NCBI GenBank assembly: GCA_016184105.1
Contig: JACPDI010000022.1
Coordinates: 1-64,000 of the forward strand
Reading direction: 5' to 3'
Origin: Acidobacteriota bacterium
Lineage (GTDB): Bacteria > Acidobacteriota > Vicinamibacteria > Vicinamibacterales > 2-12-FULL-66-21
Length of the DNA stretch: 64,000 bases
Made by a program: the position numbers and the translations under genes. Under the pieces are notes generated by a model, which was given only the letters and a program-made list of their open reading frames with translations, was not told the DNA's origin and did no database searches. This document shows, piece by piece, positions 42,589 to 62,399 of the stretch. Each line of letters opens with the position of its first letter. Positions within the stretch are counted from its first letter, which is position 1.

Positions 42589-42795
42589 CGGCCGCCCTGA
42601 CGCAATCGCCGCGCCGCGCCTGCCCCCCTGAAAACACTGGGCAATCGTGGCCCCATGCGCGCCGCTGCCGGATTTCCGGCAGAGCCGGACATGGCCCGAG
42701 AACCCGCGGCAGCAGGGAGGCAAGTTGCGGAGGCGCAAAGACGCGCGGCCCGCCCGGGACCTACGCTTGGCCATTCATCTGGAGGACACGTCTTC

Positions 42796-45081
42796 ATGCG
42801 CAAGTACTGGACTGGCTTCATCCTCGTGGTCGTTCTCTCGTTCGGAGTCCTCGGCTGGGTCGGCACGCGCATTTACCAGTCGATGCCACCGGTGCCGGTT
42901 CGCGTGGTGGCCAGCGACGGCGCCACGGTCGTGCCCGACGGCGACATCGCCGCGGGGCAGAACGTGTGGCAGTCGATGGGCGGGATGGAACTCGGGTCGA
43001 TCTGGGGCCACGGGAGTTACGTCGCGCCGGACTGGACGGCGGACTGGCTGCATCGTGAAAGCCTGCTCATCCTCGACGACTGGAGCGCCGCCGGGCACGC
43101 GCGCCCGTACGCGGACCTGCTGCCGGAACAACAGGCCGCGCTGCGCGAACGGCTCGAGCGGGTGATGCGGCAGAACACGTTCGACGCCGGTACCGGCACG
43201 CTGGTGCTGGACCCGGCGCGCGGACGCGCGTTCGCGGCCAACGCGGCGCACTACGCGGATGTGTTCGGCTCGGGACGCGCGGAATACGCCATCCCGCGCG
43301 ACACCCTGACCGACCCGCGGCGCGCGCGGCAGCTCGCCGCGTTCATCTTCTGGACCTCGTGGGCCGCGTCGACCAACCGCCCGAACGAACGCGTGAGCTA
43401 CACCAGCAACTGGCCGCACGAGCCGCTGGTGGGCAACCGGCCGACGGGTGACACCGTCGTCTGGACGGGCGTGAGCATCATCATGCTGCTCGCCGGGATC
43501 GGCGTCATGGCGTCCTGGTACGCCACCCGGCGCGAAGAGGCGCCCGGCCCGATGCCGCTGTACGATCCGCTCCTCGGCAGCCGCGCGACGCCCGCCCAGC
43601 GTGCCGTCGTGAAGTACTTCTGGACCGTGAGCGGGCTGCTGCTGCTGCAGATGGCGATGGGCATCATCGCCGCGCACTACGGCGTCGAAGGCGATGCGTT
43701 CTACGGCGTGCCGATCTCGTCCTTCCTTCCCTACAGCGTCGCGCGCACGTGGCACGTGCAGCTCGGGATCTTCTGGATCGCCACGGCGTGGCTCGCCGCG
43801 GGCCTCTACATCGCCTCCGCGGTCGGCTCGCGCGACCAGGATCCTCCCTTCCAGCGGCTCGGCACGAACGTGCTGTTCGGCGCGCTGGTCGTCGTCGTGC
43901 TCGGGTCGATGGCCGGCCAGTGGCTCAGCATCCGGCAGCAGCTCGGCATCGGCGACGCGTGGTTTTATTTCGGGCACAGCGGATACGAGTACATCGACCT
44001 GGGCCGGGCATGGCAGATCGCGCTGCTCGTCGGGCTGTTGCTGTGGCTGTTTCTGATGGTGCGGGCGCTCCTGCCGGCGCTGCGCAAGACGGGCACCGAA
44101 TCGCCGGAGCAGGCCGAGCAGCGACCCATCCTCTTTCTGTTTCTCATCTCGACCATCGCCATCGCGTCGTTCTATGCGGCGGCGTTCGGCGCCGGTCGTC
44201 ACACGAACCTCGCGATGGCCGAGTACTGGCGGTGGTGGGTCGTGCACCTGTGGGTGGAAGGGTTCTTCGAGGTGTTCGCGACCGTCGTGATCGCGTTTCT
44301 GTTCGCGCGGCTGCGGCTCGTGTCGCTGAAGCTCGCGGGCGAAGCCAGCCTGCTCTCGGCGACGATCTTCCTGTCGGGCGGGATCATCGGCACGCTGCAC
44401 CACCTGTACTTCACGGGCACGCCGACCCTCGCGCTGGCGTTCGGCTCGGTCTTCAGCGCGCTCGAGGTGGTGCCGTTGCTCTTTGTCGGCTACGAGGCGT
44501 GGGAGAACCTGAAGCTCTCGCGCGCGACGGCGTGGGCGCGGAAGTACCGCTGGCCGATCTATTTCTTCGTGTCCGTGGCGTTCTGGAACCTGGTTGGCGC
44601 CGGGCTGTTCGGGTTCATGATCAACCCGCCCATCGCGCTGTATTACATGCAGGGGCTGAACACCACGCCGGTGCACGGCCACGCCGCGCTTTTCGGGGTG
44701 TACGGCATGCTCGGCCTGGGGCTGATGCTGTTCTCGCTGCGCGCCATGCGGCCCGAGGTGGTCTGGAAGGAGAGGCTGCTGTCGTTCGGCTTCTGGGCGA
44801 CCAACGTGGGCCTGTTCGCGATGGTGGTCCTCAGCCTTCTTCCCGTCGGGCTGATGCAGACCTGGGCGTCGGTCGAAGTCGGCTACTGGTACGCGCGCAG
44901 CCCGGAGTTCCTGCAGGGCGGCGCCATCAACGCGTTCCGCTGGCTCCGCATCGTCGGCGACACGATCTTCGCCGCCGGCATCGTCTCGCTCGTGCTGTTC
45001 ATGTTCGGCCTGAGCTCCGGACACACGGTCCGGGCCGCGGAGGCGGCGGGCGCCGCACTTCCCGAGCGAACCCCCGCGTAA
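42796..45081 (+). CDS. norZ: Quinol-dependent nitric oxide reductase (single chain)
   Basis: 761 residues from ATG 42796. An N-terminal membrane helix and periplasmic domain (NVWQSMGGMELGSIWGHGSY) replace the NorC subunit. The C-terminal part is a haem-copper-oxidase-like subunit with about 12 helices and histidines in RTWHVQLGIFWIATAW, VVHLWVEGFFEVFATV, GTLHHLYFTGTP and TPVHGHAALFGVYG. It reduces 2 NO to N2O with electrons from quinol. No nitrite or nitrous oxide reductase is present, so detoxification or partial denitrification is likely. Confidence 0.93.
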   Translation: MRKYWTGFILVVVLSFGVLGWVGTRIYQSMPPVPVRVVASDGATVVPDGDIAAGQNVWQSMGGMELGSIWGHGSYVAPDWTADWLHRESLLILDDWSAAGHARPYADLLPEQQAALRERLERVMRQNTFDAGTGTLVLDPARGRAFAANAAHYADVFGSGRAEYAIPRDTLTDPRRARQLAAFIFWTSWAASTNRPNERVSYTSNWPHEPLVGNRPTGDTVVWTGVSIIMLLAGIGVMASWYATRREEAPGPMPLYDPLLGSRATPAQRAVVKYFWTVSGLLLLQMAMGIIAAHYGVEGDAFYGVPISSFLPYSVARTWHVQLGIFWIATAWLAAGLYIASAVGSRDQDPPFQRLGTNVLFGALVVVVLGSMAGQWLSIRQQLGIGDAWFYFGHSGYEYIDLGRAWQIALLVGLLLWLFLMVRALLPALRKTGTESPEQAEQRPILFLFLISTIAIASFYAAAFGAGRHTNLAMAEYWRWWVVHLWVEGFFEVFATVVIAFLFARLRLVSLKLAGEASLLSATIFLSGGIIGTLHHLYFTGTPTLALAFGSVFSALEVVPLLFVGYEAWENLKLSRATAWARKYRWPIYFFVSVAFWNLVGAGLFGFMINPPIALYYMQGLNTTPVHGHAALFGVYGMLGLGLMLFSLRAMRPEVVWKERLLSFGFWATNVGLFAMVVLSLLPVGLMQTWASVEVGYWYARSPEFLQGGAINAFRWLRIVGDTIFAAGIVSLVLFMFGLSSGHTVRAAEAAGAALPERTPA

Positions 45082-48177: not shown

Positions 48178-48499
48178 CAGAAATTGAAGGGGTGGAGCCC
48201 GCTCGAATCACCGTCTGCGTTCATGCTGTCGTGGGGGGAGCGGCCGATACGGAGATTTTGCCTGCCCGAAACGGGACTGTCACTCGGATTCTGAGCTTCG
48301 CCTTCCTCTTCGGATGCGCTGACGGCGACAATCCAGCATCCGGCCTGAGGCGCCCGGACCCACCTGACGGTAATTCGGCACCTTCCCTGAACGGCCGTCT
48401 CGACACCGGCCAAATCGCTGATTTCAGGGGCATTTCCGCGCCCTGCCGCGTGGGCACGGCCGTTGCCTCGTGACCGGTGTTTCCAGGAGGAATTTGTCT
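48178..48499 (+). other. Intergenic region with regulatory signals for nifJ and the sensor kinase
   Basis: A 322-base gap between divergent genes. Besides the sigma-54 site and ribosome binding site listed separately, I see no gene. GCCTGCCCGAAACGGGACTG near 48261-48280 contains a short palindrome (CCCGAAACGGG), and the following CGGGACTGTCAC is shared with the palindrome at 45095. Confidence 0.5.
48452..48467 (+). promoter_or_regulatory. Sigma-54 (-24/-12) promoter upstream of the pyruvate oxidoreductase gene
   Basis: GGGCACGGCCGTTGCC matches the sigma-54 consensus TGGCACG-N4-TTGC(A/T). GG at 48453-48454 and GC at 48465-48466 are exactly ten bases apart. A transcript starting about 12 bases downstream would have a leader of roughly 22 bases containing AGGAGGAA at 48486-48493, then the ATG at 48500. 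Confidence 0.6.
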
Positions 48500-51400
48500 A
48501 TGACGCGCCCGTGGCTGACCCTCGACGGCAACGAAGCGACCGCGAGAGTCGCCTACCAGCTCAGCGAAGTGATCGCGATCTACCCCATCACGCCCTCGTC
48601 CAACATGGGCGAGTGGGCCGATCAGTGGGCTTCCGAGCACCGGCCGAACTTGTGGGGGACGCCTCCCACGGTCGTCGAGATGCAGAGCGAAGGGGGCGCG
48701 GCGGGCGCCTGCCACGGCGCGATGCAGGCCGGCGCGCTCGCGACGACGTTCACGGCGAGCCAGGGCCTCCTCCTGATGATCCCGAACATGTTCAAGATCG
48801 CCGGCGAGCTGACGCCGGCGGTGTTCCACGTGTCGGCACGCGCGGTTGCAACGCACGCGATCTCGATCTTCGGGGATCACTCCGACGTGATGTCGGTGCG
48901 CACCACCGGGTGGGCGCTCCTCGCCTCCAATTCCGTGCAGGAGGCCCAGGACATGGCGGCCATCGCGCACGCCTCGACGCTCGAGACCCGCGTGCCCGTG
49001 CTGCACTTTTTCGACGGGTTCCGCACGTCGCACGAAGTCGCCAAGATCCAGGCGCTGACCAGCGAGGAGCTGCACGACCTCATCCCCGACGGGTTGATTG
49101 AAGCGCACCGCACGCGCGCGCTCTCGCCCGACAGGCCGGTGCTCCGCGGCTCGGCGCAGAACCCGGACGTGTTCTTCCAGGCCCGCGAAGCCGCGACGCC
49201 GTACTATCTCGCCGGCCCCGCGCTCGTGCAGCGCGTCATGGACCGATTCGCCACGATCACCGGCCGCAAGTACCGCATCTTCGAGTACTACGGCGCGCCG
49301 GACGCGGACCGCGTCATTGTCGCGATGGGCTCGGCTGCGGGCGCGATCGACGAAGCGGTGGACAAGCTCAATCGGTCCGGTGAGAAGGTCGGCGTGCTGA
49401 AGATCCGCCTGTTCCGCCCGTTCAGCGCCGTGCACTTCATGCGCGCGCTCCCCGCCACCGTGCGCGGGATCGCGGTCCTCGATCGCACGAAGGAACCAGG
49501 CGCGGCCGGCGAGCCGCTATACCAGGACGTCCTGACCGCGATCGCCGAGCAGGGCTCCCTGCTGCAGCCGGCGGAGCGCCCCACGGTCATCGGCGGCCGC
49601 TACGGTCTGGGCTCCAAGGAATTCACGCCCGCCATGGCCAAGGCCGTGTTCGACGAGCTGAAGCGCCCGGCGCCGCGCAACCACTTCACCGCCGGCATCG
49701 TCGACGACGTGTCGTTCTCGAGCCTTGATCATGACGAGGAGTTCTCGACCGAGCACCCCGACACTGTGCGCGCCGTGCTGTACGGGCTCGGCTCCGACGG
49801 CACCGTAGGCGCGAACAAGAACACGATCAAGATCATCGGCGAATCGACCGAGCAGTACGCCCAGGGGTACTTCGTCTACGACTCGAAGAAGTCCGGATCG
49901 ACGACGATTTCGCACCTGCGCTTCGGCCCGCATCCGATCCGATCGACGTATCTCGTGTCGCGCGCCGGATTCATCGGGTGTCACCAGTGGGAGCTGCTCG
50001 AGCGGATGGACGTGCTCGAAGCCGCGACGCCTGGCAGCACGCTGCTGCTCAACAGCCCGTATCCGGCCGGCGAGGTCTGGGGGAAGCTGCCGGGACGGAT
50101 CCAGCGCGTCATCGCGGACCTCAAGATGAAGGTGTACACGATTGACGCGACCGCGGTGGCCAACGCCACAGGAATGGGCAAGCGCGTCAACACGATCCTG
50201 CAGACGTGCTTCTTCGCGCTTTCAGGCGTGCTGCCCAAAGACGACGCGATCGCCGCCATCAAGAAGGCGGTGCAGAAGACCTACGGCGCCAAGGGAGAGA
50301 ACGTCGTCCAGCAGAACTTCAACGCGATCGACCAGGCACTCGCCCACCTGCACGAGGTGGCCGTGCCCGCCACCTTCGATCTGAACCTCGAGAACGGGAC
50401 GGCGCCGTGGGACGAGGCCCCGGAGTTCGTGCGCAACGTCCTCGCACCGATGATCATCGGCAAGGGGGACCGGCTGCCGGTCAGCGCGATGCCGATCGAC
50501 GGCACGTTCCCGGTCGGCACGGCCAGGTGGGAGAAGCGGAATCTCGCGGACCAGATCCCGGCATGGACCGAGCCGATCTGCATCCAGTGCGGCAAGTGCG
50601 CCCTCGTGTGCCCGCACGCGGCCATCCGCATCAAGGCATACCCGCCGGCGCTGCTCGCCGGCGCGCCCGCGACGTTCAAATCGATGGACTACAAGGGCGC
50701 GGAGTACGCCGGGCAGAAGTACACCATCCAGGTGGCGCCTGAGGACTGCACGGGCTGCGAATTGTGCGCCGAGGTCTGCCCCGCCGCCGACAAGAAGACC
50801 GGGCAGCGCGCCCTCGAGATGAAGCCGCAGCGCGACCTGCGCGCGGCTGAGAGCGCGAACTGGAATTTCTTCCTCGGGCTGCCCGAAGTCGATCGCGTCA
50901 CCGCGAAGAAGACCACCGTCAAGGGCTCGCAGTTCCTCGAGCCGCTGTTCGAGTTCTCGGGCGCGTGCTCCGGCTGCGGCGAGACGCCGTACGTCAAGCT
51001 GGCGACCCAGCTGTTCGGCGATCGGATGGTCGTCGCCAATGCGACCGGCTGCTCGTCGATCTACGGCGGCAACCTGCCGACCACTCCGTGGACGACGGAT
51101 GCCTGCGGGCGGGGGCCCGCGTGGTCGAACTCGCTCTTCGAGGACAACGCCGAATTCGGCTTTGGCATGCGGCTGACCATCGACCAGCTCGCCGAGGAAG
51201 CGCGCGCCCTGCTCGCGCGGCTCCGCGCGGTGGCCGGCGAGGGGCTCGCCGCCGCGATCCTCGACGCCGTGCAGGCCGACGAGCAGGCGATCAGCGAGCA
51301 GCGCGAGCGGATTGTGGCGCTGAAGCGGATGCTGGAATGGTCGCTGAAACGCCGGCCGCGCGGAGAGACGGCGGACGCCGAGCGCCGGCTGCTCTCGCTG

Positions 51401-52099
51401 GCGGACTACCTCGTGCGCAAGTCGGTGTGGATCATCGGCGGCGACGGCTGGGCGTACGACATCGGGTACGGCGGGCTGGACCACGTCCTCGCGTCCGGGC
51501 GTGACGTCAACGTGCTCGTGCTCGACACCGAGGTGTACTCCAACACCGGCGGGCAGATGTCGAAGGCGACGCCCCGCGCGGCGGTGGCGAAGTTTGCGGC
51601 CGGCGGCAAGCCGCTCGCGAAGAAGGACCTCGGCCTGATCGCGATGACCTACGGCAACATCTACGTCGCGTCGGTGGCCATGGGCGCCAACGACGCGCAG
51701 ACCGTCAAGGCGTTCATGGAGGCGGAGTCCTACAACGGCCCCTCGCTCATCATCTCCTACGGGCACTGCATCGCCCACGGGATCGACATCAGCAAGGGGC
51801 TCAAGCAGCAGGCGAACGCGGTGGCGTGCGGTCACTGGCCGCTGTACCGCTTCGATCCGCGGCTGGCGGCACACGGCAAGAACCCGCTGTCGCTCGACTC
51901 GAAGCCGCCGAAGATCTCGTTCATCGATTACGCGTACCAGGAAACGCGGTACCGGATGCTCGCGTCGGCCGACAAGAAGGCTGCGCAGACGCTCGCCGAG
52001 CTCGCGCAGCAGGACGTGACGCTGCGGTGGAAGATGTACGAGCAGCTTGCGAAGCTGTACGAGACGACCGCCACGGGGGCGGCTGCCGTGAAGGCGTGA
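48500..52099 (+). CDS. nifJ: Pyruvate:ferredoxin (flavodoxin) oxidoreductase, single chain
   Basis: 1199 residues from ATG 48500, behind AGGAGGAA. It oxidises pyruvate with CoA to acetyl-CoA and CO2, reducing ferredoxin. Domains in order: alpha (AIYPITPSSNMGEWADQW), gamma (SGSTTISHLRFGPHPIRS), a two-[4Fe-4S] insert near residues 690-770 (CIQCGKCALVCPHAAIR and CTGCELCAEVCP), and the TPP-binding beta part with CSGCGETPYVKL and GDGWAYDIGYGG. This is an oxygen-sensitive enzyme of fermentation or reductive metabolism. It stands next to the hyp operon. Confidence 0.95.
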   Translation: MTRPWLTLDGNEATARVAYQLSEVIAIYPITPSSNMGEWADQWASEHRPNLWGTPPTVVEMQSEGGAAGACHGAMQAGALATTFTASQGLLLMIPNMFKIAGELTPAVFHVSARAVATHAISIFGDHSDVMSVRTTGWALLASNSVQEAQDMAAIAHASTLETRVPVLHFFDGFRTSHEVAKIQALTSEELHDLIPDGLIEAHRTRALSPDRPVLRGSAQNPDVFFQAREAATPYYLAGPALVQRVMDRFATITGRKYRIFEYYGAPDADRVIVAMGSAAGAIDEAVDKLNRSGEKVGVLKIRLFRPFSAVHFMRALPATVRGIAVLDRTKEPGAAGEPLYQDVLTAIAEQGSLLQPAERPTVIGGRYGLGSKEFTPAMAKAVFDELKRPAPRNHFTAGIVDDVSFSSLDHDEEFSTEHPDTVRAVLYGLGSDGTVGANKNTIKIIGESTEQYAQGYFVYDSKKSGSTTISHLRFGPHPIRSTYLVSRAGFIGCHQWELLERMDVLEAATPGSTLLLNSPYPAGEVWGKLPGRIQRVIADLKMKVYTIDATAVANATGMGKRVNTILQTCFFALSGVLPKDDAIAAIKKAVQKTYGAKGENVVQQNFNAIDQALAHLHEVAVPATFDLNLENGTAPWDEAPEFVRNVLAPMIIGKGDRLPVSAMPIDGTFPVGTARWEKRNLADQIPAWTEPICIQCGKCALVCPHAAIRIKAYPPALLAGAPATFKSMDYKGAEYAGQKYTIQVAPEDCTGCELCAEVCPAADKKTGQRALEMKPQRDLRAAESANWNFFLGLPEVDRVTAKKTTVKGSQFLEPLFEFSGACSGCGETPYVKLATQLFGDRMVVANATGCSSIYGGNLPTTPWTTDACGRGPAWSNSLFEDNAEFGFGMRLTIDQLAEEARALLARLRAVAGEGLAAAILDAVQADEQAISEQRERIVALKRMLEWSLKRRPRGETADAERRLLSLADYLVRKSVWIIGGDGWAYDIGYGGLDHVLASGRDVNVLVLDTEVYSNTGGQMSKATPRAAVAKFAAGGKPLAKKDLGLIAMTYGNIYVASVAMGANDAQTVKAFMEAESYNGPSLIISYGHCIAHGIDISKGLKQQANAVACGHWPLYRFDPRLAAHGKNPLSLDSKPPKISFIDYAYQETRYRMLASADKKAAQTLAELAQQDVTLRWKMYEQLAKLYETTATGAAAVKA

Positions 52100-52108
52100 G
52101 GAGGAGTG

Positions 52109-52642
52109 ATGTCTGGCGCCATGTACGTCGTCCTCGTGCTCGTCGGGGTCGCCGCGTTCTTCGTGGTCATGGCGCTGCGGGCGTACGTCACATACCGCGG
52201 CGTGCGCGTCGTGACGTGCCCTGAGACCAAGCGGCCCGCTGCCGTCCGTGTGGATGCGGCGCACGCGGCGGTCAGCGCCGCGTGGGACCACACCGAGTTG
52301 CGGCTCGACCAGTGCTCGCGCTGGCCGGAACGCGGCGACTGCGCGCAGCCCTGCCTGCACGAGATCGCGGCCGCCCCGCAGGACTGCCTCGTCCGATCGA
52401 TCCTCGGGCGGTGGTTCGCGGGCAAGACGTGCGTGTTCTGCCACAAGCCGATCGCGCTCTTCACGCACGCCCAGCAGCCGGCGCTGCGCGATCCCGACGG
52501 CCACACGTTCGACTTCGCCGCCCTGCCCGCCGAGGACCTGATCGCGCGATTGCCGGAGTTCGATCCCGTCTGCTTCGATTGTCACATCGCGGAGCAGTTC
52601 CGGGCCGACTACCCGGAACGCGTTCTAGACAGAAGGTTCTGA
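52109..52642 (+). CDS. Small membrane-anchored cysteine-rich protein
   Basis: 177 residues from ATG 52109, with AGGAGGA just upstream, nine bases after the nifJ stop, so probably co-transcribed. One N-terminal membrane helix (MYVVLVLVGVAAFFVVMAL) precedes a soluble part with several cysteines: CSRWPERGDCAQPC, CVFCH and VCFDCH. The CxxCH-like pairs could bind haem or metal, but the protein probably faces the cytoplasm, so a metal site is more likely. Function unknown. The end overlaps hypB on the other strand. Confidence 0.7.
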   Translation: MSGAMYVVLVLVGVAAFFVVMALRAYVTYRGVRVVTCPETKRPAAVRVDAAHAAVSAAWDHTELRLDQCSRWPERGDCAQPCLHEIAAAPQDCLVRSILGRWFAGKTCVFCHKPIALFTHAQQPALRDPDGHTFDFAALPAEDLIARLPEFDPVCFDCHIAEQFRADYPERVLDRRF

Positions 52643-53332
52643 ACGGAAGGTTCTCGACGGGTCCTGCAGCCATTCGATCCACTCGTCCAGGCCCTCGCCG
52701 GTCGTCGCGGAGAAGGGCAGCATCCGGGGCTCGGGCATGACGCGCTGCAGCGCGTCCCAGATGTGGTCCACCGAGACGCCGGGCAGGTGAGGGAGCAGGT
52801 CCACCTTCGTGACGAGGACGAGGTCGGCCTTCTTGAACATCACGGGGTACTTCAGCGGCTTGTCCTCGCCTTCGGTCACCGAGAGCGCGACGACGTTGGC
52901 ACGCTCGCCCAGGTCGTAGACGGCAGGGCACACGAGATTCCCGACGTTTTCGATGAAGAGGATGTCGAGGCCGCTCCACGCCATGTGATGCAGCGCGTGG
53001 TGCACCATCGCGGCGTCGAGATGGCAGGCGTTGCCCGTCGTGATCGATCGTGACGGCACGCCCGCGCGCTGCAGCCGCGCGGCATCGTGATCCGTCGCCA
53101 GATCGCCGGCAATCGCACCCAGCTTCCGGCGCCCGGCGAGCCGGCGCGCGGTGGCTTCGAGCACGGCCGTCTTGCCTGCCCCCGGCGATCCCATCAGGTT
53201 CACGGCCAGTACACCGGCGGCGGCGAAGTGCTCGCGGTTGTGCGCGGCCTGCCGATCGTTCTCCGAGAGCACCCGATCGTGGACGTCCACCGACACCAGG
53301 TGCGGGTCGCCGCATCCGCACGATTCACACAT
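52625..53332 (-). CDS. hypB: Hydrogenase nickel-incorporation GTPase HypB
   Basis: 235 residues from ATG 53332. The N-terminal MCESCGCGD is the CxxCGC high-affinity nickel site. The SIMIBI GTPase core has the P-loop GSPGAGKTAVLE, the metal-site ACHLDAAMVH, IENVGNLVCP (nickel-binding Cys) and TKVDLL. HypB with HypA delivers nickel to the hydrogenase large subunit. It has no His-rich storage stretch. It is the last gene of the hyp operon and overlaps hypA by eight bases. Confidence 0.94.
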   Translation of the reverse strand: MCESCGCGDPHLVSVDVHDRVLSENDRQAAHNREHFAAAGVLAVNLMGSPGAGKTAVLEATARRLAGRRKLGAIAGDLATDHDAARLQRAGVPSRSITTGNACHLDAAMVHHALHHMAWSGLDILFIENVGNLVCPAVYDLGERANVVALSVTEGEDKPLKYPVMFKKADLVLVTKVDLLPHLPGVSVDHIWDALQRVMPEPRMLPFSATTGEGLDEWIEWLQDPSRTFRSEPSV

Positions 53333-53672
53333 GTTCGACCTCCACGTCGATGGTCTCCAGCACGATTTCGTCACCTTCGAGCAGCCGGACGCCGCCCCCG
53401 CACGAGGGGCACGCGAGCCGCGCCCCTGCCGGCGCGTCGCGGTCGCAGGCCGGGCAGCGCCACAGCGCCGGCACGGAGGCGATCTCCAGCTCCGCGCCGT
53501 CGCACACCGAGCCCGGGGCGCACAGCTCGTACGCGGTCCGCAGGAGGCCTGGATCGACGCCCGACAACTCTCCGAGCCGCAGCCGCAGGCGCCGCACGCT
53601 GCGCACGTCGTATCCGCGCAACGAGTCCTGCACGCGATTCAGCAACGACTGGACGATCGAGTACTCATGCAC
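53325..53672 (-). CDS. hypA: Hydrogenase nickel-insertion protein HypA
   Basis: 115 residues starting MHEYSIVQSLL (His2 binds nickel; HEY is the HypA mark). The zinc domain has WRCPACD and LACPSCGG. It carries nickel to the hydrogenase with HypB. Its start overlaps the crotonase gene by eight bases and its end overlaps hypB by eight, so translation is coupled through the three genes. Confidence 0.94.
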   Translation of the reverse strand: MHEYSIVQSLLNRVQDSLRGYDVRSVRRLRLRLGELSGVDPGLLRTAYELCAPGSVCDGAELEIASVPALWRCPACDRDAPAGARLACPSCGGGVRLLEGDEIVLETIDVEVEHV

Positions 53673-54495
53673 CGAAGACCGGCTCCTTCTTCGCGAAGAA
53701 GGCTTCGAGACCCGCCGCGAACTCGGGCTCGTCGGCGATGCGACTCAATTGCTCCAGCTCGGCGTCCAGGTGCGCGTCGAGCCGATCGACGCCGTCCGCG
53801 CGGTTCATCAACGCCTTGGCGATGCCGTACGACCGGGTGGGGCCGGCAGCGAGCTGGCGCGCGATCTCGCTCACCGACGCGTCGAACAACGCATCGGGAA
53901 CCACGCGAGTCACCAGTCCGATCTCGCGGGCACTCGACGCCGGCATCTTGGGGTTCAGGAGCATCAGCTCCAGAGACCGGCGCAGCCCGATCAGCCGCGG
54001 CAGCAGGAACGTGGAGCTCTCCGCGCCGGTCAGGCCCGTCCTGGAATAGGCCCACTCGAACGTGGAGCGCGCGGACGCCAGCACGACGTCGCACGACATC
54101 GCCAGCCCGAAGCCGCCCGCGGCCGCGATCCCGTCCACGGCGGCCACGACGGGCTTCGGCGCCCGGCGAATCTCGCTGATGGTGCTGTGGAGGTACTCGA
54201 GAATCTGCTTGAAGACCTCCCCATAACCCGACGGGACCGGGCGCGCGCCAGGCGTGAGGTAGCCCAGATCCCGTTCGACCCCGCCCGCGCGGATGTACTT
54301 GAGATCCGCGCCGCTGCAGAACACGCCGCCGATGCCGCGCAGGATCATCACCCGCACCGCCGGATCGCGCGCCAGCTGCAGCGCTGCCGCGCGGAGGTCG
54401 CGCGCCGTGTCCACGTCGAGCGAATTGAACCGCGCCGGCCGATCGATCGTGACCGTCCCGATCGCCTCTTCCCGTGCGACGTGAATATGGCTCAT
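53665..54495 (-). CDS. Crotonase-fold protein in the hyp operon: candidate HypX C-terminal-domain equivalent
   Basis: 276 residues of the enoyl-CoA hydratase/isomerase superfamily: ARFNSLDVDTARDL, oxyanion-hole segments GVFCSGADLKYI and GIAAAGGFGLAMSCD, and WAYSRTGLTGAESSTFLLP. The usual hydratase PGAGGTQ loop is absent. A Tyr followed nine residues later by Glu (Y..GAE) recalls the Tyr and Glu reported for the HypX crotonase domain, though I am aligning from memory. In HypX this domain releases CO from formyl-CoA. Here it is a separate gene following a formyltransferase gene and overlapping hypA. Ordinary fatty-acid hydratase is the alternative; the operon position argues against it. Confidence 0.75.
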   Translation of the reverse strand: MSHIHVAREEAIGTVTIDRPARFNSLDVDTARDLRAAALQLARDPAVRVMILRGIGGVFCSGADLKYIRAGGVERDLGYLTPGARPVPSGYGEVFKQILEYLHSTISEIRRAPKPVVAAVDGIAAAGGFGLAMSCDVVLASARSTFEWAYSRTGLTGAESSTFLLPRLIGLRRSLELMLLNPKMPASSAREIGLVTRVVPDALFDASVSEIARQLAAGPTRSYGIAKALMNRADGVDRLDAHLDAELEQLSRIADEPEFAAGLEAFFAKKEPVFGA

Positions 54496-54521
54496 GGATG
54501 CCCTCGCCAGCCTGCGGCCCT

Positions 54522-55280
54522 CTATGCCTCAACGAGCTGCGCAATCGCCTTCGTCGTACCGTCCTCGTCCAGTTCCAGGGGCCCTGCCGGCTCGCCGCAG
54601 GCCATGATTTCGATCGATCGCGCGATCATCGGGCCCCACGCCGATCGCAGCATCCATTCGGTCTGCGCGAACGCGACCGAGCGGAGCACGTCGGAGGCCT
54701 GGCGCAGGGCGGCCCAGCGGGCCACCTCCGGCACCGGAAACGGCCAGGACCGCAGCAGCACGGGCCCGGCGTCCAGCTCCGCGTTCACGATGTGCGCGGA
54801 GGCGCGGGTCTCGCGTTCGCCGGCCTGGATCGCGTCGCGGACGGCGCGCAGCCCGGGATAGCGCGGGGCGCCGCCGGGCCGGCGCGCGAGCAGGTCGGAG
54901 TGGTGGATGTTGACGATCCGGTCGGGAAAGGCGTCCAGCACGGGCTCGGTCAGCCGATACAGGTAGCCGCTGAGGACGATCAGATCCGGCTTGTATGGCG
55001 CCAGCTTGCGGACGGTGCGCTCGTCGTACTGCCGCCGGGCCTCGAGATCGCGCAGCGGCCGCCCGGCCACGCCGTAGAACGCGTGGATGGGATGCGGGAT
55101 CGTCGGGATGCCGCGGCGCTCGACGCGCACCTCCTCGGCAAACGTCGCCTCGCTCGACACGCAGCAGACGATCTCGTACAAGGGGCCCCGGTTCCGGTCG
55201 CGGCCGAGCACGTGCACGAGGCCGGGCGCGCGGTGCGAGCAGAGGATCGCGACACGAAGCGGCAGGCGTGGGATCAGCAT
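54522..55280 (-). CDS. Stand-alone formyltransferase in the hyp operon: candidate HypX N-terminal-domain equivalent
   Basis: 252 residues from ATG 55280. It belongs to the glycinamide-ribonucleotide formyltransferase superfamily: RVAILCSHRAPGL at the start, LIVLSGYLYRL, FPDRIVNIHHSDL and ASAHIVNAELDAGPVLL. The Asn, His and Asp that bind formyl-tetrahydrofolate and act in catalysis (NIH, SAH and LDAG) are all present. PurN itself is shorter and has NIHPSLLP. It overlaps the end of hypE by seven bases and is 26 bases from the crotonase gene. Together they match the two halves of HypX. Confidence 0.78.
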   Translation of the reverse strand: MLIPRLPLRVAILCSHRAPGLVHVLGRDRNRGPLYEIVCCVSSEATFAEEVRVERRGIPTIPHPIHAFYGVAGRPLRDLEARRQYDERTVRKLAPYKPDLIVLSGYLYRLTEPVLDAFPDRIVNIHHSDLLARRPGGAPRYPGLRAVRDAIQAGERETRASAHIVNAELDAGPVLLRSWPFPVPEVARWAALRQASDVLRSVAFAQTEWMLRSAWGPMIARSIEIMACGEPAGPLELDEDGTTKAIAQLVEA

Positions 55281-56305
55281 ATGCGCGGCAGGGGCTCCCC
55301 TTCGGGCTCGGCGACCAGGCGCCGGCCGAATCCGGTATCCAGAACGAGCAACCCGGGGCGCTCGGCGACGCACGTCCCGACGATCGCGGCATCGCGCCCG
55401 AGGGCGTGCCCGCGCAACGCCCGCAGCACGGCATCGGCCTCGCCCGCACGGACGCCGATGACCGCCTTCCCCTCGTTCGCCACGTGCAGCGGGTCGATGC
55501 CCAGCAGCTCCGCGGCGCCGCGTACCGCGTCGGAGATCGGGATCGCCCGATCCTCGAGGACGATGCCAACGCGGCTCTTCGCGGCCATTTCGTGAAGCGC
55601 GCTCGCCAGCCCGCCGCGCGTCGGATCTTTCATCGCGGTGATCCCGCCGGCCGCGGCCGCCGCGATGGCGGCGCGCGCCAGGCCATTGATCGGCGCCACG
55701 TCGGACTGGAGCGTTCCCTCGATCCCGAGCTTGTGGCGCGCAGCCGTCACGGCGAGCCCGTGATCGCCAATCGTGCCGGTCACGATGATGCGATCGCCCG
55801 GCTGGAGCCCGGCGTCGCGCACGATCGCCGGCGTGAGCGCCACCCCCGTGGTGTTCACCACGATGCCGTCGACCTCCCCGCGGCCCATCACCTTCGTATC
55901 ACCCGTCACGATCGTCGTCCCCGCCTCCGCGCAGGCCTGGCGCATCGAGGCGTGGATGGCCAGCAGCGACTCCCGGGAGAACCCTTCTTCCAGCACCATC
56001 GCGCACGTGAGGCCGAGCGGTTCGGTGGCGCCCATCATCGCGAGATCGTTCACGGTCCCGCACACCGCGAGCCGGCCGATGTCGCCGCCGGGAAAGAAGG
56101 CGGGCTGCACGACGTGCGAATCGGTCGTGACCACCAGCCACTGCTCCCCCACTCGGATCGCCGCCCCATCGTCCATGGCGTCGGCGCCGATCCAGCTGCC
56201 CGGCGCGATGCCGTCGAGCAGCACCTGCTCGATCAGGGCGCGCATGGCGCGGCCGCCGGCGCCGTGCTTGAGGGCGATCCGTTCCTCCAGCGACGTGTGA
56301 CTCAT
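55274..56305 (-). CDS. hypE: Hydrogenase cyanide-ligand maturation protein HypE
   Basis: 343 residues from ATG 56305. It has the PurM-like fold: KHGAGGRAM, DSHVVQPAFFPGGDIG, VCGTVNDLAMMGA, GDTKVMGRG and DPTRGGLASALHE. The C-terminus is PRIC, the cysteine that receives carbamoyl from HypF and is dehydrated to thiocyanate as the CN source. It overlaps hypD by four bases and the formyltransferase gene by seven. Confidence 0.95.
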   Translation of the reverse strand: MSHTSLEERIALKHGAGGRAMRALIEQVLLDGIAPGSWIGADAMDDGAAIRVGEQWLVVTTDSHVVQPAFFPGGDIGRLAVCGTVNDLAMMGATEPLGLTCAMVLEEGFSRESLLAIHASMRQACAEAGTTIVTGDTKVMGRGEVDGIVVNTTGVALTPAIVRDAGLQPGDRIIVTGTIGDHGLAVTAARHKLGIEGTLQSDVAPINGLARAAIAAAAAGGITAMKDPTRGGLASALHEMAAKSRVGIVLEDRAIPISDAVRGAAELLGIDPLHVANEGKAVIGVRAGEADAVLRALRGHALGRDAAIVGTCVAERPGLLVLDTGFGRRLVAEPEGEPLPRIC

Positions 56306-57468
56306 GCGCGCCTCGCGTACGGATCGACGGGAAGCGCCGCCAGGTCCGGGTGCCCGCCGTACTGATGCCAGATGCGGCACGTGCCTTCGCTGCTGACCAT
56401 GCAGGCGCCCACGGCGGAGTCGGGCAGGCACTCCCGGCCGAACAGCGCGCAGTCCCGAGGCGAGGCGATGCCCGCCATGATGTCGCCGCAGATGCACTGC
56501 TGGACGAGGGCCGGGGGGGCGGTGTCCCAGAGCGACGCGACATCGATCTCGAAACGACGCCGCGCGTCCACGCCCGCCCACTCGTCGCGGAGCCGCAGGT
56601 TGCCGTTGGGCACGTGCGCGATCCCGCGCCAGCGGCCGCCGATGGGCCGGAACACGCGCCAGAGCTGCTGCTGCGCCTGCAGGTTCCCCTCTTTCGTCAC
56701 GCAGCGCGGGTACATGTTCGCCACCTCTGGTGCCGCATCCCGCACGAGCTCCACCAGCCGCACGAGGCCGGCGAGGATGTCGAGCGGCTCGAAGCCCGCG
56801 ACCACGACCGGCTTGCGGTGCCGCGCGACGAATGCTTCGTAGATGCCCCAGCCCGTGATCGTCGCCGCGTGCCCCGCCGCCAGGAAGCCTTCGACCCGCG
56901 TGTCCGGCATCTCGGACACGATTGCCATGACCGGCGGGATGTACTTGTGCGCGGAGAGGACGGACAAGTTCGGAGGAGGATCTCCCAGGATGACGGCGGC
57001 AGTGGCCACCGCGGTCGTCTCGAAGCCGGTCGCGAAGAACACGAGGGGCTCCGACGGGGTTTTGCGCGCCAGCGCCACCGCCTGGGTGATGCTGTAGACC
57101 ACGTCGATGCGCGCGCCCTCTGCCTGCACGTCGGCCAGCGAGAGCGCGGATCCGCGCACCTTCAGCATGTCGGCGTAGGTGGCGAGGCGAATGCCCTGCC
57201 GAGCGAGCGCCACCGCTTCATCGACCTCGGGAAGATCGGTGATGCACACCGGGCAGCCCGGTCCCATGATCACGTCGAGCGAACGCGGAAACACGGCGCG
57301 CAGGCCGAAGCGCGCGATCGCCTGCTCGTGTGATCCGCACACGTGCATGATGGCCACGGGTTCGCGCCGGACCTCCGCCGTGACGCGGTGCAGCGCGCGG
57401 ACGAGCGCCGCGGCGCGCTCCGGATCGCGGAACTGCAGGCGTGTCAACGCGGCGTGCGCGTCAGCCAT
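56302..57468 (-). CDS. hypD: Hydrogenase Fe(CN)2CO assembly protein HypD
   Basis: 388 residues from ATG 57468 (MADAHAALTR). Conserved cysteine motifs: HVCGSHEQAI, MGPGCPVCITD (iron-binding Cys), and the [4Fe-4S] ligands in QQCICGDIMAG, FGREC and CRIWHQYGG. FATGFETTA is also typical. HypD with HypC forms the scaffold on which the Fe(CN)2CO unit is built. Its start overlaps hypC. Confidence 0.95.
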   Translation of the reverse strand: MADAHAALTRLQFRDPERAAALVRALHRVTAEVRREPVAIMHVCGSHEQAIARFGLRAVFPRSLDVIMGPGCPVCITDLPEVDEAVALARQGIRLATYADMLKVRGSALSLADVQAEGARIDVVYSITQAVALARKTPSEPLVFFATGFETTAVATAAVILGDPPPNLSVLSAHKYIPPVMAIVSEMPDTRVEGFLAAGHAATITGWGIYEAFVARHRKPVVVAGFEPLDILAGLVRLVELVRDAAPEVANMYPRCVTKEGNLQAQQQLWRVFRPIGGRWRGIAHVPNGNLRLRDEWAGVDARRRFEIDVASLWDTAPPALVQQCICGDIMAGIASPRDCALFGRECLPDSAVGACMVSSEGTCRIWHQYGGHPDLAALPVDPYARRA

Positions 57469-57787
57469 TCGCGCCCGTGCCTCCACCCGCCTTCCGGCCT
57501 CCGCCGCCCGTCTGGTCCCCTGTCGCCTGCACCTCCGATCGGACATCGGCCGCCATCAGGTCGTCCTGGGCGCTCTCGAGCAGCTGCTCGTAGAGCGCCA
57601 GCGTTTCCTGGATGTCGTCCTGCGGGATTCGGCGGATCGCGTAGCCGACGTGATTGAGGATGTAATCGCCCGGTGCCACCGGCTGGTCAACCAGCTCGAG
57701 GCGCACTTCGCGCGTCACTCCCCAGAAATCGACGATGGCCACCAGGCCGTTCACGGCCAGGACCCGGCCGGGCACTCCGAGGCACAT
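57461..57787 (-). CDS. hypC: Hydrogenase maturation chaperone HypC with a Gly-rich tail
   Basis: 108 residues. The N-terminal MCLGVPGRV carries the essential Cys2 that binds the iron unit, and GDYILNHVGYAI is conserved. The body ends near residue 80. The extra C-terminal 25 residues (GGGGRKAGGGTGANG) are not usual for HypC and overlap the start of hypD. It passes the Fe(CN)2CO group to the large subunit. Confidence 0.95.
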   Translation of the reverse strand: MCLGVPGRVLAVNGLVAIVDFWGVTREVRLELVDQPVAPGDYILNHVGYAIRRIPQDDIQETLALYEQLLESAQDDLMAADVRSEVQATGDQTGGGGRKAGGGTGANG

Positions 57788-57802: not shown

Positions 57803-57900
57803 CCACGTGCCACGTGCGACGTGCGACGTGCGACGTGCGACGTGCGACGTGCGACGTGCGACGTGCGACGTGCGACGTGCGACGTGCGACGTGCGACGTG
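57803..57900. repeat. 14-copy heptamer tandem array in the hypF-hypC gap
   Basis: Two copies of CCACGTG are followed by twelve exact copies of CGACGTG, 98 bases in all. It nearly fills the 120-base gap between hypF (stop at 57908) and the hypC start (57787), leaving 15 bases for the hypC ribosome binding site. The near-perfect copies suggest recent expansion and copy-number variation. Confidence 0.9.
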
Positions 57901-57907
57901 CGATCTC

Positions 57908-60223
57908 TCATGAGCGACGCGAGTCGCGCGCCGCCGTCGCGATCGCGTTGGCGACCAGGGCCTGCCCGAGCGCGATGCCGCCGTCGCCGGGCGGCACCTG
58001 CCGGTGGAGGCACACACGGAACATCGGGCTGAGTTCCTCGAGGGTCCGCTCCGTCAGCAGCGCGTTCTGAAAGCATCCGCCGGTGAGAACGACACGGAGC
58101 CTCCCGAACAGCACCGCGGCGTGACGGACGACTTGCGCGGATGCGGCCGCGATCGTGTTGTGGAACCGGGCCGCGACGATCGCCGGCGCCTCGCCGCCGA
58201 TAAGCTCGTAGACGGCGCCTCTGACCATCGGGCGCAGGTCGATCGTCCAGGGCGAACCGTCACGAACGATGTCGAAGGGATACCGGCCGCGCTCGCGCCC
58301 CGGTGCCGCCGCCGCCATCATGTTCCACTCGAAGGCCAGCTGCCCCTCGTAGGTGGCCCGTGTGCGGCACAGGCCGATGGCGGCGAACGCGTCGAAGTAT
58401 CTCCCCACGCCGTGGGCCGCCGGCGCGTTGGCCCCCGTGGCGATGAGCCTCCGGACGATCGCAAGCTCCTCGGCCGGAATCTGGCGGAACAGGCGCACAT
58501 CAGCCACCGGCGGCTCACCCGCGAACGCGTCCTCGAGCAGCGCGAGGGCGATGCGCCACGGTTCGCGTATCGCCCGGTCGCCGCCGGCGAGCACGACGGG
58601 ACGGAACGTCGCGAGACGGGTAAAACTGGCCGCGTCCGCCAGCAGCAGCTCGCCGCCCCATGCCGCGCCGTCGGCACCGTAGCCCGTGCCGTCATACGCG
58701 AGCCCGAAGACGGGGCCGGCGATCCGGTGCTCCGCGATGGCGCTGGCCACGTGCGCGTGATGGTGCTGCACGGCGATCCTGCGGGATTCGACGCGCAGTT
58801 GCGCGTAGCGCGTGGACAGGTAGTCCGGGTGCATGTCGTGCGCGACGATCTCCGGCTCGACCCCGAGGAACCGCTGCATGCGGTCGATGGAGTCCTGGTA
58901 GGACTCGAATGTTTCGAGGTTCTCGAGGTCGCCGATGTGCGGGCCCAGGTAGGCGGCGTTGCCGATGCCGAAGCAGAACGTGTTCTTGAGGAGCGCGCCG
59001 CACGCGAGCACCGGTGTGTCGAACGGGCGCGCGACGGGCACTGGACGCGGCACGTAGCCGCGCGAGCGCCGCAGCAGCATCGGGCCGCCGGCCACGACGC
59101 GCGCCACCGAGTCATCGCAGCGCGTCACGATCGGGCGGTCGTGCACCAGGAAGAGATCCGCGATCTCGCCGAGCCGCGCGAGCGCCTCCTCGTTGCGGAA
59201 CGCGAGCGGCTCGTCGGACAGGTTCCCCGATGTCATGACGAGCGGGCACGCCGCCGCCCGCGCGAGCAGGTGGTGCAGCGGCGAATACGGCAGCAGCAGC
59301 CCGACCAGCGGGTTGCCGGGGGCGACCGACGCGGCCAGCGGCGCGCCGGATCGCCGCGGCGCCAGCACGATGGGCCGCTCCGCCGACAGCAGCAGCGCGC
59401 GCTCCGCCGGGCCAAGGTGCGCGAGGCGTTCCGCCTCGTCCAGGTCGCGCACCATGACCGCAAACGGCTTCTCGTCGCGGTGCTTGCGACGGCGCAGGCG
59501 CAGCACGGCGAGCTCTGACGCCGCGTCGCACGCCAGGTGAAAGCCGCCGATCCCCTTCACGGCCACCGTGAGCCCGGCGCCGATCAGGCGCGCCGCAAGC
59601 TCGATCGGATCTTCGCCGTCGATCGCCCCGTCTCCCGGCACCAGCGCGCGCAGCGTGGGACCGCAGGCCGGGCACGCGTTCGGCTGCGCGTGGAACCGGC
59701 GATCGTCCGGGTTGTCATACTCGCGCCGGCACTCGGGACACATGTCGAAGCCGCGCATCGAGGTCGCCGCGCGGTCGTAGGGCACACCGAGCGCAATGGT
59801 GAACCGCGGGCCGCAGTTGGTGCAGTTGGTGAACGGGTACCGGTGGCGGCGGTTCGCCGGATCGCGAATCTCGCGCGCGCAGTCGCCGCACGTCGCCAGG
59901 TCCGCGGGGATCGAGACGCGGCGCTCGTCGCCCGCTTCGCTCTCGACGATCGTGAAATCCGAGACCGCCTCCGGCGGAATCGCGCTGTCCTCCACCGAGC
60001 TGATCGAAGCGGCGGGCGGTCCCGATTCCCGCAGCCGGCGCACGAAGCGCTCGAGCGCCTCCTGCGACCCGAACGCATGAATGACGACGCCGGCGGCGTC
60101 GTTGAGGACCCGCCCGTGCAGGCGCAGCTCGCGCGCGAGGCGGTACACCCAGGGGCGGAAGCCCACTCCCTGGACGGTGCCACGGACGTGGATGCGCCGG
60201 CCTTCGACTGCGGCCCTGGTCAT
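57908..60223 (-). CDS. hypF: Carbamoyltransferase HypF
   Basis: 771 residues from ATG 60223 (MTRAAVEGRRIHVRG). In order: acylphosphatase domain (GTVQGVGFRPWVYRLA), two zinc fingers (CGDCAREIRDP..CTNCGPRFT and CPECRREYDNP..CPACGP), a YrdC-like domain (LAVKGIGGFHLACDA) and a Kae1-like carbamoyltransferase domain (VQHHHAHVAS, YDGTGYGADG, TGGCFQNALL). It makes carbamoyl adenylate and loads HypE. It is the first gene of the hyp operon, with a sigma-54 site 28-43 bases upstream. Confidence 0.95.
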   Translation of the reverse strand: MTRAAVEGRRIHVRGTVQGVGFRPWVYRLARELRLHGRVLNDAAGVVIHAFGSQEALERFVRRLRESGPPAASISSVEDSAIPPEAVSDFTIVESEAGDERRVSIPADLATCGDCAREIRDPANRRHRYPFTNCTNCGPRFTIALGVPYDRAATSMRGFDMCPECRREYDNPDDRRFHAQPNACPACGPTLRALVPGDGAIDGEDPIELAARLIGAGLTVAVKGIGGFHLACDAASELAVLRLRRRKHRDEKPFAVMVRDLDEAERLAHLGPAERALLLSAERPIVLAPRRSGAPLAASVAPGNPLVGLLLPYSPLHHLLARAAACPLVMTSGNLSDEPLAFRNEEALARLGEIADLFLVHDRPIVTRCDDSVARVVAGGPMLLRRSRGYVPRPVPVARPFDTPVLACGALLKNTFCFGIGNAAYLGPHIGDLENLETFESYQDSIDRMQRFLGVEPEIVAHDMHPDYLSTRYAQLRVESRRIAVQHHHAHVASAIAEHRIAGPVFGLAYDGTGYGADGAAWGGELLLADAASFTRLATFRPVVLAGGDRAIREPWRIALALLEDAFAGEPPVADVRLFRQIPAEELAIVRRLIATGANAPAAHGVGRYFDAFAAIGLCRTRATYEGQLAFEWNMMAAAAPGRERGRYPFDIVRDGSPWTIDLRPMVRGAVYELIGGEAPAIVAARFHNTIAAASAQVVRHAAVLFGRLRVVLTGGCFQNALLTERTLEELSPMFRVCLHRQVPPGDGGIALGQALVANAIATAARDSRRS

Positions 60224-60249
60224 GTCTGCGGATGGTCCGCGGTGCCGAT

Positions 60250-60266
60250 GGCAAGGAGGGTGCCAC
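60250..60266 (-). promoter_or_regulatory. Sigma-54 (-24/-12) promoter of the hyp operon
   Basis: On the minus strand TGGCACCCTCCTTGCC matches TGGCACG-N4-TTGC closely, with GG (60264-60263) and GC (60252-60251) ten bases apart. Transcription would start near 60240, about 17 bases before the hypF ATG at 60223. The E. coli hyp operon is also sigma-54 dependent. Confidence 0.65.
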
Positions 60267-60575
60267 GCAACTCGAGCGGCAAAGCGCTGAAAACGCGCCT
60301 GAAACCGCGCGTCCACGGCCGGCCGGGGCGCCTGGACGCGCGCGTGACGGAAAACCGCAAAGAAAGTCCAGGATCTGGCAATCTGAGGATTTGACGATTT
60401 CCGCGTGCCGGTTTCCCGGCAACCGGCCGACGTTCGCGCGAAAACTACCAGGAAATACCCCGGTTTCCGCGCTGGCGAGAGCTTTGCGAATGAAGAACTG
60501 AGATCAACCGCGGAGTCGTTGCGCGTCCGGACTCCTCCGTCCCCCTACTGCATTCCGGGCGGCTGCGCTCCGCGG

Positions 60576-60604
60576 TTGACGTGTTTCTGGCCTTCTTTTT
60601 TCAT
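60576..60604 (+). promoter_or_regulatory. Possible sigma-70-type promoter of korA
   Basis: TTGACG at 60576-60581 and TTTCAT at 60599-60604 are 17 bases apart, and the ATG begins at 60609. The transcript would start at or next to the ATG, so it would be leaderless, as proposed for ispH. Confidence 0.35.
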
Positions 60605-60608
60605 AACC

Positions 60609-62399
60609 ATGAGACAGGACCTCGTTATCGGGATGGCGGGCGCGGGCGGAGACGGCGTCATCGCCGCGGGCGAAGCGCTCATCGCGGCCGCGGCCATCGA
60701 CGGCTATCACGCGCGCATGACCAAGAGTTTTGGCTCGCAGATTCGCGGCGGTGAGTCGTCTTTCCGCCTCCGCATGTCGACGGCGCCGGTGCTGAGCCTT
60801 GGCGGCGCGCTCGACGTGGCGGTCGCGCTCAACTGGGACGACTTCCTGCGCTTCGGCGCGGAGCTGCCGGTCGGCGGCCGCACGACCGTGATCTATGACA
60901 GCAAGACCGGCGTGGCGACCAGCCAGATTCCGCTCACCGGCATTACGCCGGCCGAAGTGGTGGCCGTGCCGATCGACCAGATGGCGCGCGACCTGGTCGG
61001 CAACGACCGGGCGAAGAACACCGTCGTCCTGGGGCTGCTGTCGGGGTGGTTCGGGCTGCCCGCCGCGGCGATTCTCTCCGGGCTCAAGAAGCGCTTTGCG
61101 GCGAAGGGCGAAGAGACCGTCAAGCGCAACGAGGACGCGTTCAACGCGGGCGTGAAATACGCGCAGGAGCATCCGCTGGCCAAGGGATCGACGCTCGCGC
61201 CCGTCGCGAAGACGACCGCCAAGCGGCTCATCGCCGACGGCAACACGATGTGCGGCGCGGCGGCCATCGTGGCCGGCTGCAGGTTTTTCGGCGGCTACCC
61301 GATCACGCCATCGACCGAGATCATGCAGTTCCTCACCAAGGAGCTGTTCAAGTACGGCGGCACCGTGCTCCAGGCGGAAGACGAGATCGCGGGAGTGGGC
61401 GCGGCGATTGGTGCGTCGTTCGCCGGCGTGAAGGCCATGACCGCGACCTCCGGCCCAGGCATGTCGCTCAAGAGCGAGATGCTCGGCCTCGCGACGATCG
61501 CGGAGCTGCCGCTGGTCTGCGTCAACGTGCAGCGCGGCGGGCCGTCGACCGGCATCCCGACCAAGAGCGAGCAGTCGGACCTGTTCCAGGCCGTCTTCTC
61601 GGCGCACGGCGACGTGGTCCGCCCCGTGCTCGCCCCGGTCAGCGTGGCCGACATCTTCGGGATCACGATCGAGGCCTTCAACATCGCCGAGGCCTACCAG
61701 ACGCCGGTCATCGTGCTCTCGGACGGTGACATCGGGCAGCGGAAGGAAACCGTCGATCCGTTCAACGTCGACGCGTTCCCGATCGTGGAGCGCGATCGGC
61801 CGGCGCCCGACGAACTGGCCGCGTACACGCGGTTCAAGCTGACCGAGTCGGGCGTGAGCCCGATCAGCGAGCCCGGCATGGCCGGAGGGAACTATCTCGC
61901 GTCGGGCATCGAGCACACGCAGTCGGGAGCGCCGACGGCGGCCGGGTCGGTGCACGCGGAGATGACGGCCAAGCGGTCGCGGAAGCTCGACCCGCTCAAG
62001 AAGCGGAAGGACCTGTTCCAGGAATACGGCCGGGCCGGCGCGCCGCTCGCGCTGGTGAGCTGGGGCAGCGTCGCCGGCATCGCGCAGGAAGCGCTGACGC
62101 TTGCCGAGCGTGAGGGGCTGCGCGTGAAGCTGCTCGTACCCAGGCTGCTCTACCCGGTGGCCGAGGAGATCTACCGCGCCTTCTTCAAGTCGGTGCAGGG
62201 CGGCCTCATCGTCGAGCAGTCGTACCAGGGACAGCTCTGGCGGCTGCTGCGGATGTTCGTCAACGTGCCGGACGGTGTCGAGCCGTTTGCCCGGCCGAGC
62301 GCCGTGCCCATCAGCCCCGAGGAGCTCGTCACGCGGCTGAAGCACATTGCGGTGGAACTGCAGCGCGGGAGAATGCCCGAAGCCGCGCCGGTGGAATAG
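60609..62399 (+). CDS. korA: 2-oxoacid:ferredoxin oxidoreductase, fused gamma-alpha subunit
   Basis: 596 residues from ATG 60609. The N-terminal 170 residues are the gamma domain (GMAGAGGDGVIAAGE, KSFGSQIRGGESSF). The alpha domain follows (GCRFFGGYPITPSTEIMQFL, GPGMSLKSEMLGLA, NVQRGGPSTGIPTKSEQSDL). With the beta subunit it converts 2-oxoglutarate or another 2-oxoacid and CoA to acyl-CoA, CO2 and reduced ferredoxin. The C-terminal LLRMFVNVPDGVEPF matches Kor-type enzymes. The substrate cannot be fixed by eye. Confidence 0.92.
   Translation: MRQDLVIGMAGAGGDGVIAAGEALIAAAAIDGYHARMTKSFGSQIRGGESSFRLRMSTAPVLSLGGALDVAVALNWDDFLRFGAELPVGGRTTVIYDSKTGVATSQIPLTGITPAEVVAVPIDQMARDLVGNDRAKNTVVLGLLSGWFGLPAAAILSGLKKRFAAKGEETVKRNEDAFNAGVKYAQEHPLAKGSTLAPVAKTTAKRLIADGNTMCGAAAIVAGCRFFGGYPITPSTEIMQFLTKELFKYGGTVLQAEDEIAGVGAAIGASFAGVKAMTATSGPGMSLKSEMLGLATIAELPLVCVNVQRGGPSTGIPTKSEQSDLFQAVFSAHGDVVRPVLAPVSVADIFGITIEAFNIAEAYQTPVIVLSDGDIGQRKETVDPFNVDAFPIVERDRPAPDELAAYTRFKLTESGVSPISEPGMAGGNYLASGIEHTQSGAPTAAGSVHAEMTAKRSRKLDPLKKRKDLFQEYGRAGAPLALVSWGSVAGIAQEALTLAEREGLRVKLLVPRLLYPVAEEIYRAFFKSVQGGLIVEQSYQGQLWRLLRMFVNVPDGVEPFARPSAVPISPEELVTRLKHIAVELQRGRMPEAAPVE

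Follow-up and report, generated by a model that had tools for sequence, protein, structure and literature searches.

A stand-alone HypX-type crotonase and a PurN-branch formyltransferase encoded together in the hyp operon of an Acidobacteriota bacterium

HypX (HoxX) is a fused formyltransferase-crotonase that makes the CO ligand of [NiFe]-hydrogenase from formyl-tetrahydrofolate. Under oxic conditions the synthesis of CO requires HypX (PMC12134894), and the protein of R. eutropha needs the counterparts of both Tyr416 and Glu426 of the crotonase domain of A. aeolicus HypX (PMC6802093). In A. aeolicus (6J0P) and in C. necator HypX goes with an O2-tolerant uptake hydrogenase, as do the two proteins described here.

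The window, that is, the whole stretch of DNA that was analysed, comprises 64,000 nt of an Acidobacteriota bacterium (GCA_016184105.1, contig JACPDI010000022.1, positions 1-64,000 of the forward strand). It contains a complete and tightly packed hyp operon on the minus strand, in the order hypF-C-D-E-FT-CROT-A-B, where FT is a formyltransferase and CROT a crotonase (Table 1). The earlier note on this DNA had proposed this order, with separate and adjacent formyltransferase and crotonase genes, whose ends overlap or nearly touch, lodged between hypE and hypA. The open reading frames, the Pfam and NCBIfam assignments and the gene junctions all agree with it. The ATG of FT overlaps the end of hypE, which terminates in PRIC, a gap of 26 bases separates FT from CROT, and CROT overlaps hypA. 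The frames of hypD and hypB extend to 57546 and 53374, respectively, with ATG codons at 57465, overlapping the hypC stop, and at 53332, overlapping the hypA end. The two functions are thus encoded with the hyp genes, as in HypX, but by two open reading frames instead of one, and the two proteins do not offer the single internal cavity for CoA of the fused protein.

Table 1. Genes of the hyp operon in the window, listed from hypF to hypB
Gene	Product	Coordinates	Strand	Evidence
hypF	carbamoyltransferase	57908..60316	-	TIGR00143 1.5e-228
hypC	scaffold chaperone	57461..57787	-	PF01455 2.4e-23
hypD	scaffold	56302..57465	-	PF01924 2.6e-121; junction
hypE		55274..56302	-	TIGR02124 2.8e-112; C-terminal PRIC motif intact; junction
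FT	PurN-branch formyltransferase, 252 aa	54522..55280	-	Formyl_trans_N 9e-24; own clade; AF2 pLDDT 94; best fold matches PurN, Z 23.5
CROT	stand-alone HypX-type crotonase, 276 aa	53665..54495	-	ECH_1 1.5e-43; tree with HypX C-domains; alignment; AF2 pLDDT 90
hypA		53325..53672	-	PF01155 1.8e-26
hypB		52625..53332	-	TIGR00073 2e-80; junction

Between hypF and hypC, 14 copies of the 7-base unit ACGTGCG are arrayed (57805-57903). The operon is flanked on the other strand by genes for pyruvate:ferredoxin oxidoreductase and a second protein of the 2-oxoacid:ferredoxin oxidoreductase type (48470-52099 and 60405-62399), and a nitric oxide reductase of the NorB type is encoded further to the left (42655-45081). 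A 178-aa protein without a Pfam family (52106-52642) has relatives near hyp genes in loci L039, L126 and L257.

The two catalytic glutamates of enoyl-CoA hydratases are not found in CROT, where the alignment places Gly130 and Tyr150 at the positions of rat Glu144 and Glu164. Glu159 is also present, and Tyr150 and Glu159, which occupy the places of A. aeolicus HypX Tyr416 and Glu426, are invariant in 28 copies. In the alignment used for the tree, a Tyr at the rat Glu164 position followed 9-10 residues on by Gly-Ala/Ser-Glu is present in 17/17 CROT and 9/9 HypX sequences and in 0/40 other crotonases. In the maximum-likelihood tree, CROT and nine HypX C-domains form one clan against these 40 crotonases with a support of 100/99, and the clan is recovered at 100/100 when residues 146-164, the stretch of the Tyr/Glu motif, are masked. 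HypX sits on a long branch, and the tree does not separate an origin of HypX within CROT from one beside it. A tree constrained to place the HypX C-domain with the crotonases of L208, L210 and L211 instead is 21.8 log units worse (p-AU 0.054, borderline if taken alone). Of 23 genomes, 19 have CROT as the best crotonase match of HypX, as found by matching coordinates by hand.

A plain sequence search gives CROT higher scores with PaaG-type isomerases than with HypX. The PaaG-type crotonases have the same overall fold as CROT and the best plain score with it, but lack the pair of Tyr and Gly-x-Glu and carry the usual Pro-Asp loop in place of the Gly-Ala-Glu of CROT. The AF2 model of CROT (pLDDT 90) matches the HypX C-domain with a Z of 30.6 over 251 residues at an rmsd of 2.4, in a fold search that does not separate the crotonase families, all 1000 chains having a Z of at least 8. 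Judged by its sequence, CROT descends with the crotonase domain of HypX. This descent, together with the active-site residues, supports a decarbonylation step.

The formyltransferase has a different ancestry. FT carries Asn124, His126 and Asp170 and, in addition, an invariant Asp129, which is not found in E. coli PurN. In the tree it forms a clade of its own (support 100) on the PurN side, apart from the HypX N-domain and from Fmt, and it scores 72 bits with the PurN model TIGR00639, for which the cut-off is 150. FT shares with PurN the Rossmann formyl-THF domain and the Asn-His-Asp triad, and PurN is the best fold match of its AF2 model. It differs from PurN by its separate clade, a longer loop after the His and its genomic link to the hyp genes. 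The HypX N-domain is of the FDH/Fmt type with His74, Asp80 and Asp109 and includes an OB subdomain, for which FT is too short; the spacing of His74 and Asp80 stands against the Asp at His+3 in FT. HypX structures are absent among the best 50 fold matches of the FT model, which does not exclude a likeness.

Since FT lies on the PurN branch, it is not a detached HypX N-domain, and a literal fission of HypX is ruled out. The 'split HypX' of the earlier note therefore stands for the crotonase half, which belongs to the HypX clan, and falls for the formyltransferase half. The phylogeny that the note had proposed as a test accordingly speaks against HypX descent of the formyltransferase, though not against its function, and is favorable for the crotonase; the residues that it had listed, Asn, His and Asp in the formyltransferase and a HypX-like Tyr and Glu in a crotonase without the usual hydratase loop, are all in place. 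On phylogenetic grounds, the pair combines a HypX-type crotonase with a formyltransferase of different descent.

The order F-C-D-E-FT-CROT-A-B recurs in relatives, with identities of 43-57% for FT and 62-68% for CROT, which indicates that the arrangement is more than chance. The presence of the pair in the hyp operons of relatives, another test put forward at the outset, was thus borne out. In relatives from the same taxonomic order, the canonical PurN proteins are only about 30-42% identical, as compared to 43-57% for the FT orthologues of these genomes. In G012, G048, G064, G077 and G095, what remains of the hyp operon keeps the gene order of the window, with FT and CROT adjacent and upstream of hypA. 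G331, a relative that shares the hyp operon and the hydrogenase, has neither FT nor CROT; the pair can therefore be dispensed with, as would fit an auxiliary role.

It is very improbable that an ordinary fatty-acid crotonase and a purine formyltransferase came to lie in the operon by chance. Annotation at the family level would say nothing more than this, but both hydratase glutamates are missing from CROT, the host genome encodes its own canonical PurN (G000:C21) and other crotonases, and the genes remain in hyp operons across phyla. It is also improbable, if less so, that CROT does not decarbonylate and instead helps maturation as a CoA-binding protein, for instance by docking to HypCD or in regulation, with FT formylating an amine or a sugar as do its relatives of the PurN type. 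The closest solved relatives by sequence, PaaG-type isomerases for CROT and PurN for FT, would fit such a role; the invariant Tyr/Glu pair common only to HypX, the grouping with the HypX C-domain and the fixed place in the hyp operon argue against it.

Among 347 genomes of the window's phylum, 164 have hypD, 13 have CROT, all of them with hypD, and 11 have FT. FT and CROT co-occur in 10/11 FT genomes and 10/13 CROT genomes (Fisher p 5e-16, with shared descent ignored). The CROT genomes of the phylum without FT are G015, G373 and G380, while G149 has only a degenerate copy of FT. Fused HypX occurs in 2 of the 347 genomes, neither of which has CROT, although 2 against 13 CROT genomes are too few for a statistic on exclusivity. 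It is likewise absent from the 24 CROT or FT genomes that were reached through loci, in a search in which C. necator pHG1, the positive control, was matched.

In a scan of named genomes, hyp operons with a CROT of 57-69% identity turned up in Acidobacteriota (among them Thermoanaerobaculia), Myxococcota, Chloroflexota (among them Thermoflexus) and a bin labelled as Melainabacteria. The next-best crotonases are about 35% identical and lie outside hyp operons where checked. For most CROT loci, including all Myxococcota and Chloroflexota examined, FT is found neither in the hyp operon nor elsewhere in the genome. An obligate FT-CROT pair is thereby ruled out, and so is an FT hidden in the gap between hypD and CROT of Thermoflexus, which holds two small open reading frames (L063:7934-8540) and no formyltransferase. 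CROT is the constant core, and FT is confined to some Acidobacteriota-type genomes.

The catalytic residues of FT follow the presence of CROT. Asn, His and Asp are kept in 13/13 copies beside an intact CROT and in 1/6 copies without it (p 5e-4), with at least three separate losses. In the hypC-FT copies of G100, G122 and G149 the Asn is replaced by Ala and the Asp by Gly. The FT of G161 has Gly and Ala at catalytic sites, and in G099, where the crotonase frame is cut to 77 residues, Glu replaces the Asp. The one copy of the six that retains all three residues is that of G007. This retention beside CROT and loss without it link the catalysis of FT to CROT.

Some of the loci without CROT have features of their own. 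In G007 (L039:7294-11722) hypF, hypC and FT are accompanied by a stretch resembling a maturation protease; no [NiFe] large subunit was found in the genome, and no match to hypD, hypE, hypA, hypB or a crotonase within the surrounding 35 kb. G161 retains a hypF-FT-hypB remnant (L257:5111-9062) with no crotonase or hypD match. A conserved cassette outside the hyp operon (L185:2880-4015, L186:1752-2851 and L256:7573-8711) consists of a second hypC, a degenerate FT copy directly after it that has lost the catalytic Asn and Asp, and then the genes of a radical SAM and a nitroreductase-like protein, and two of the three copies lie near pyruvate:ferredoxin oxidoreductase.

A single full [NiFe] large subunit was found in the host genome, and its gene lies on another contig (G000:C27:138954). 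The small subunit of the host hydrogenase shares 60% identity with C. necator HoxK and has all six Cys of the O2-tolerant proximal cluster. Given the oxic requirement for HypX in CO synthesis, a supply of CO in the presence of oxygen fits this hydrogenase. The small subunits beside the CROT operons of L042, L061, L064, L071 and L188 have a proximal motif Cys-x-Gly-Asn as against Cys-x-x-Cys.

FT and CROT together probably do the work of HypX as two proteins, supplying the CO ligand of the [NiFe] cofactor. FT would take the formyl group of N10-formyl-tetrahydrofolate and hand it to a thiol, most likely that of coenzyme A. The formyl-CoA would then pass to CROT, which may bind it and remove CO using Tyr150 and Glu159, and the CO would be delivered to the Fe on HypC-HypD. 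The route would serve to mature the O2-tolerant hydrogenase, whose genes lie elsewhere in the genome, under oxic conditions. As FT is closer to PurN than to any CoA-formylating enzyme, CoA can be named as its acceptor only tentatively. Of the two-protein pathway that the earlier note had put forward, the conserved order, the co-occurrence and the HypX Tyr and Glu in CROT make it the best reading, whereas FT did not derive from HypX and CROT often occurs alone.

Because most CROT genomes have no FT, CROT must work without it there. CROT might then be the CO maker by itself, a formyl-CoA decarbonylase that does not receive formyl-CoA from FT, with FT a later, lineage-specific addition that improves the supply or formylates something else. 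In agreement with such a role, hyp operons from four phylum-level groups contain CROT, for the most part without FT next to it or elsewhere, and its active-site residues are invariant in loci with and without FT. It nevertheless seems unlikely, as the co-occurrence of FT with CROT and its decay without CROT argue that the product of FT goes to CROT, and no source of formyl-CoA has been identified in the genomes without FT. A broader proposal, to which the two-protein route of the window would belong as one case, is put forward tentatively. The stand-alone hyp crotonase could be a widespread CO-making enzyme that predates fused HypX or arose in parallel with it. Dedicated formyltransferases would have joined it at least twice, by fusion of an FDH-type domain in HypX and by recruitment of a PurN-type protein in Acidobacteriota, while in most phyla the crotonase would use formyl-CoA from some other source.

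Neither a stand-alone HypX-type crotonase nor a two-gene HypX was found described in the open-licence papers that were searched. The operon points to a second route to the CO ligand in aerobic bacteria, one that was assembled separately. CO-ligand synthesis outside HypX is still an open problem, and a HypX-type crotonase standing alone in several phyla offers an enzyme of small size on which the decarbonylation can be tested. FT and CROT separate two reactions of HypX so far studied within one protein, and they raise the question of how formyl-CoA is handed on, or how it is obtained where no partner is encoded. On this finding, many uncultured bacteria without hypX are predicted to mature their hydrogenase under aerobic conditions.
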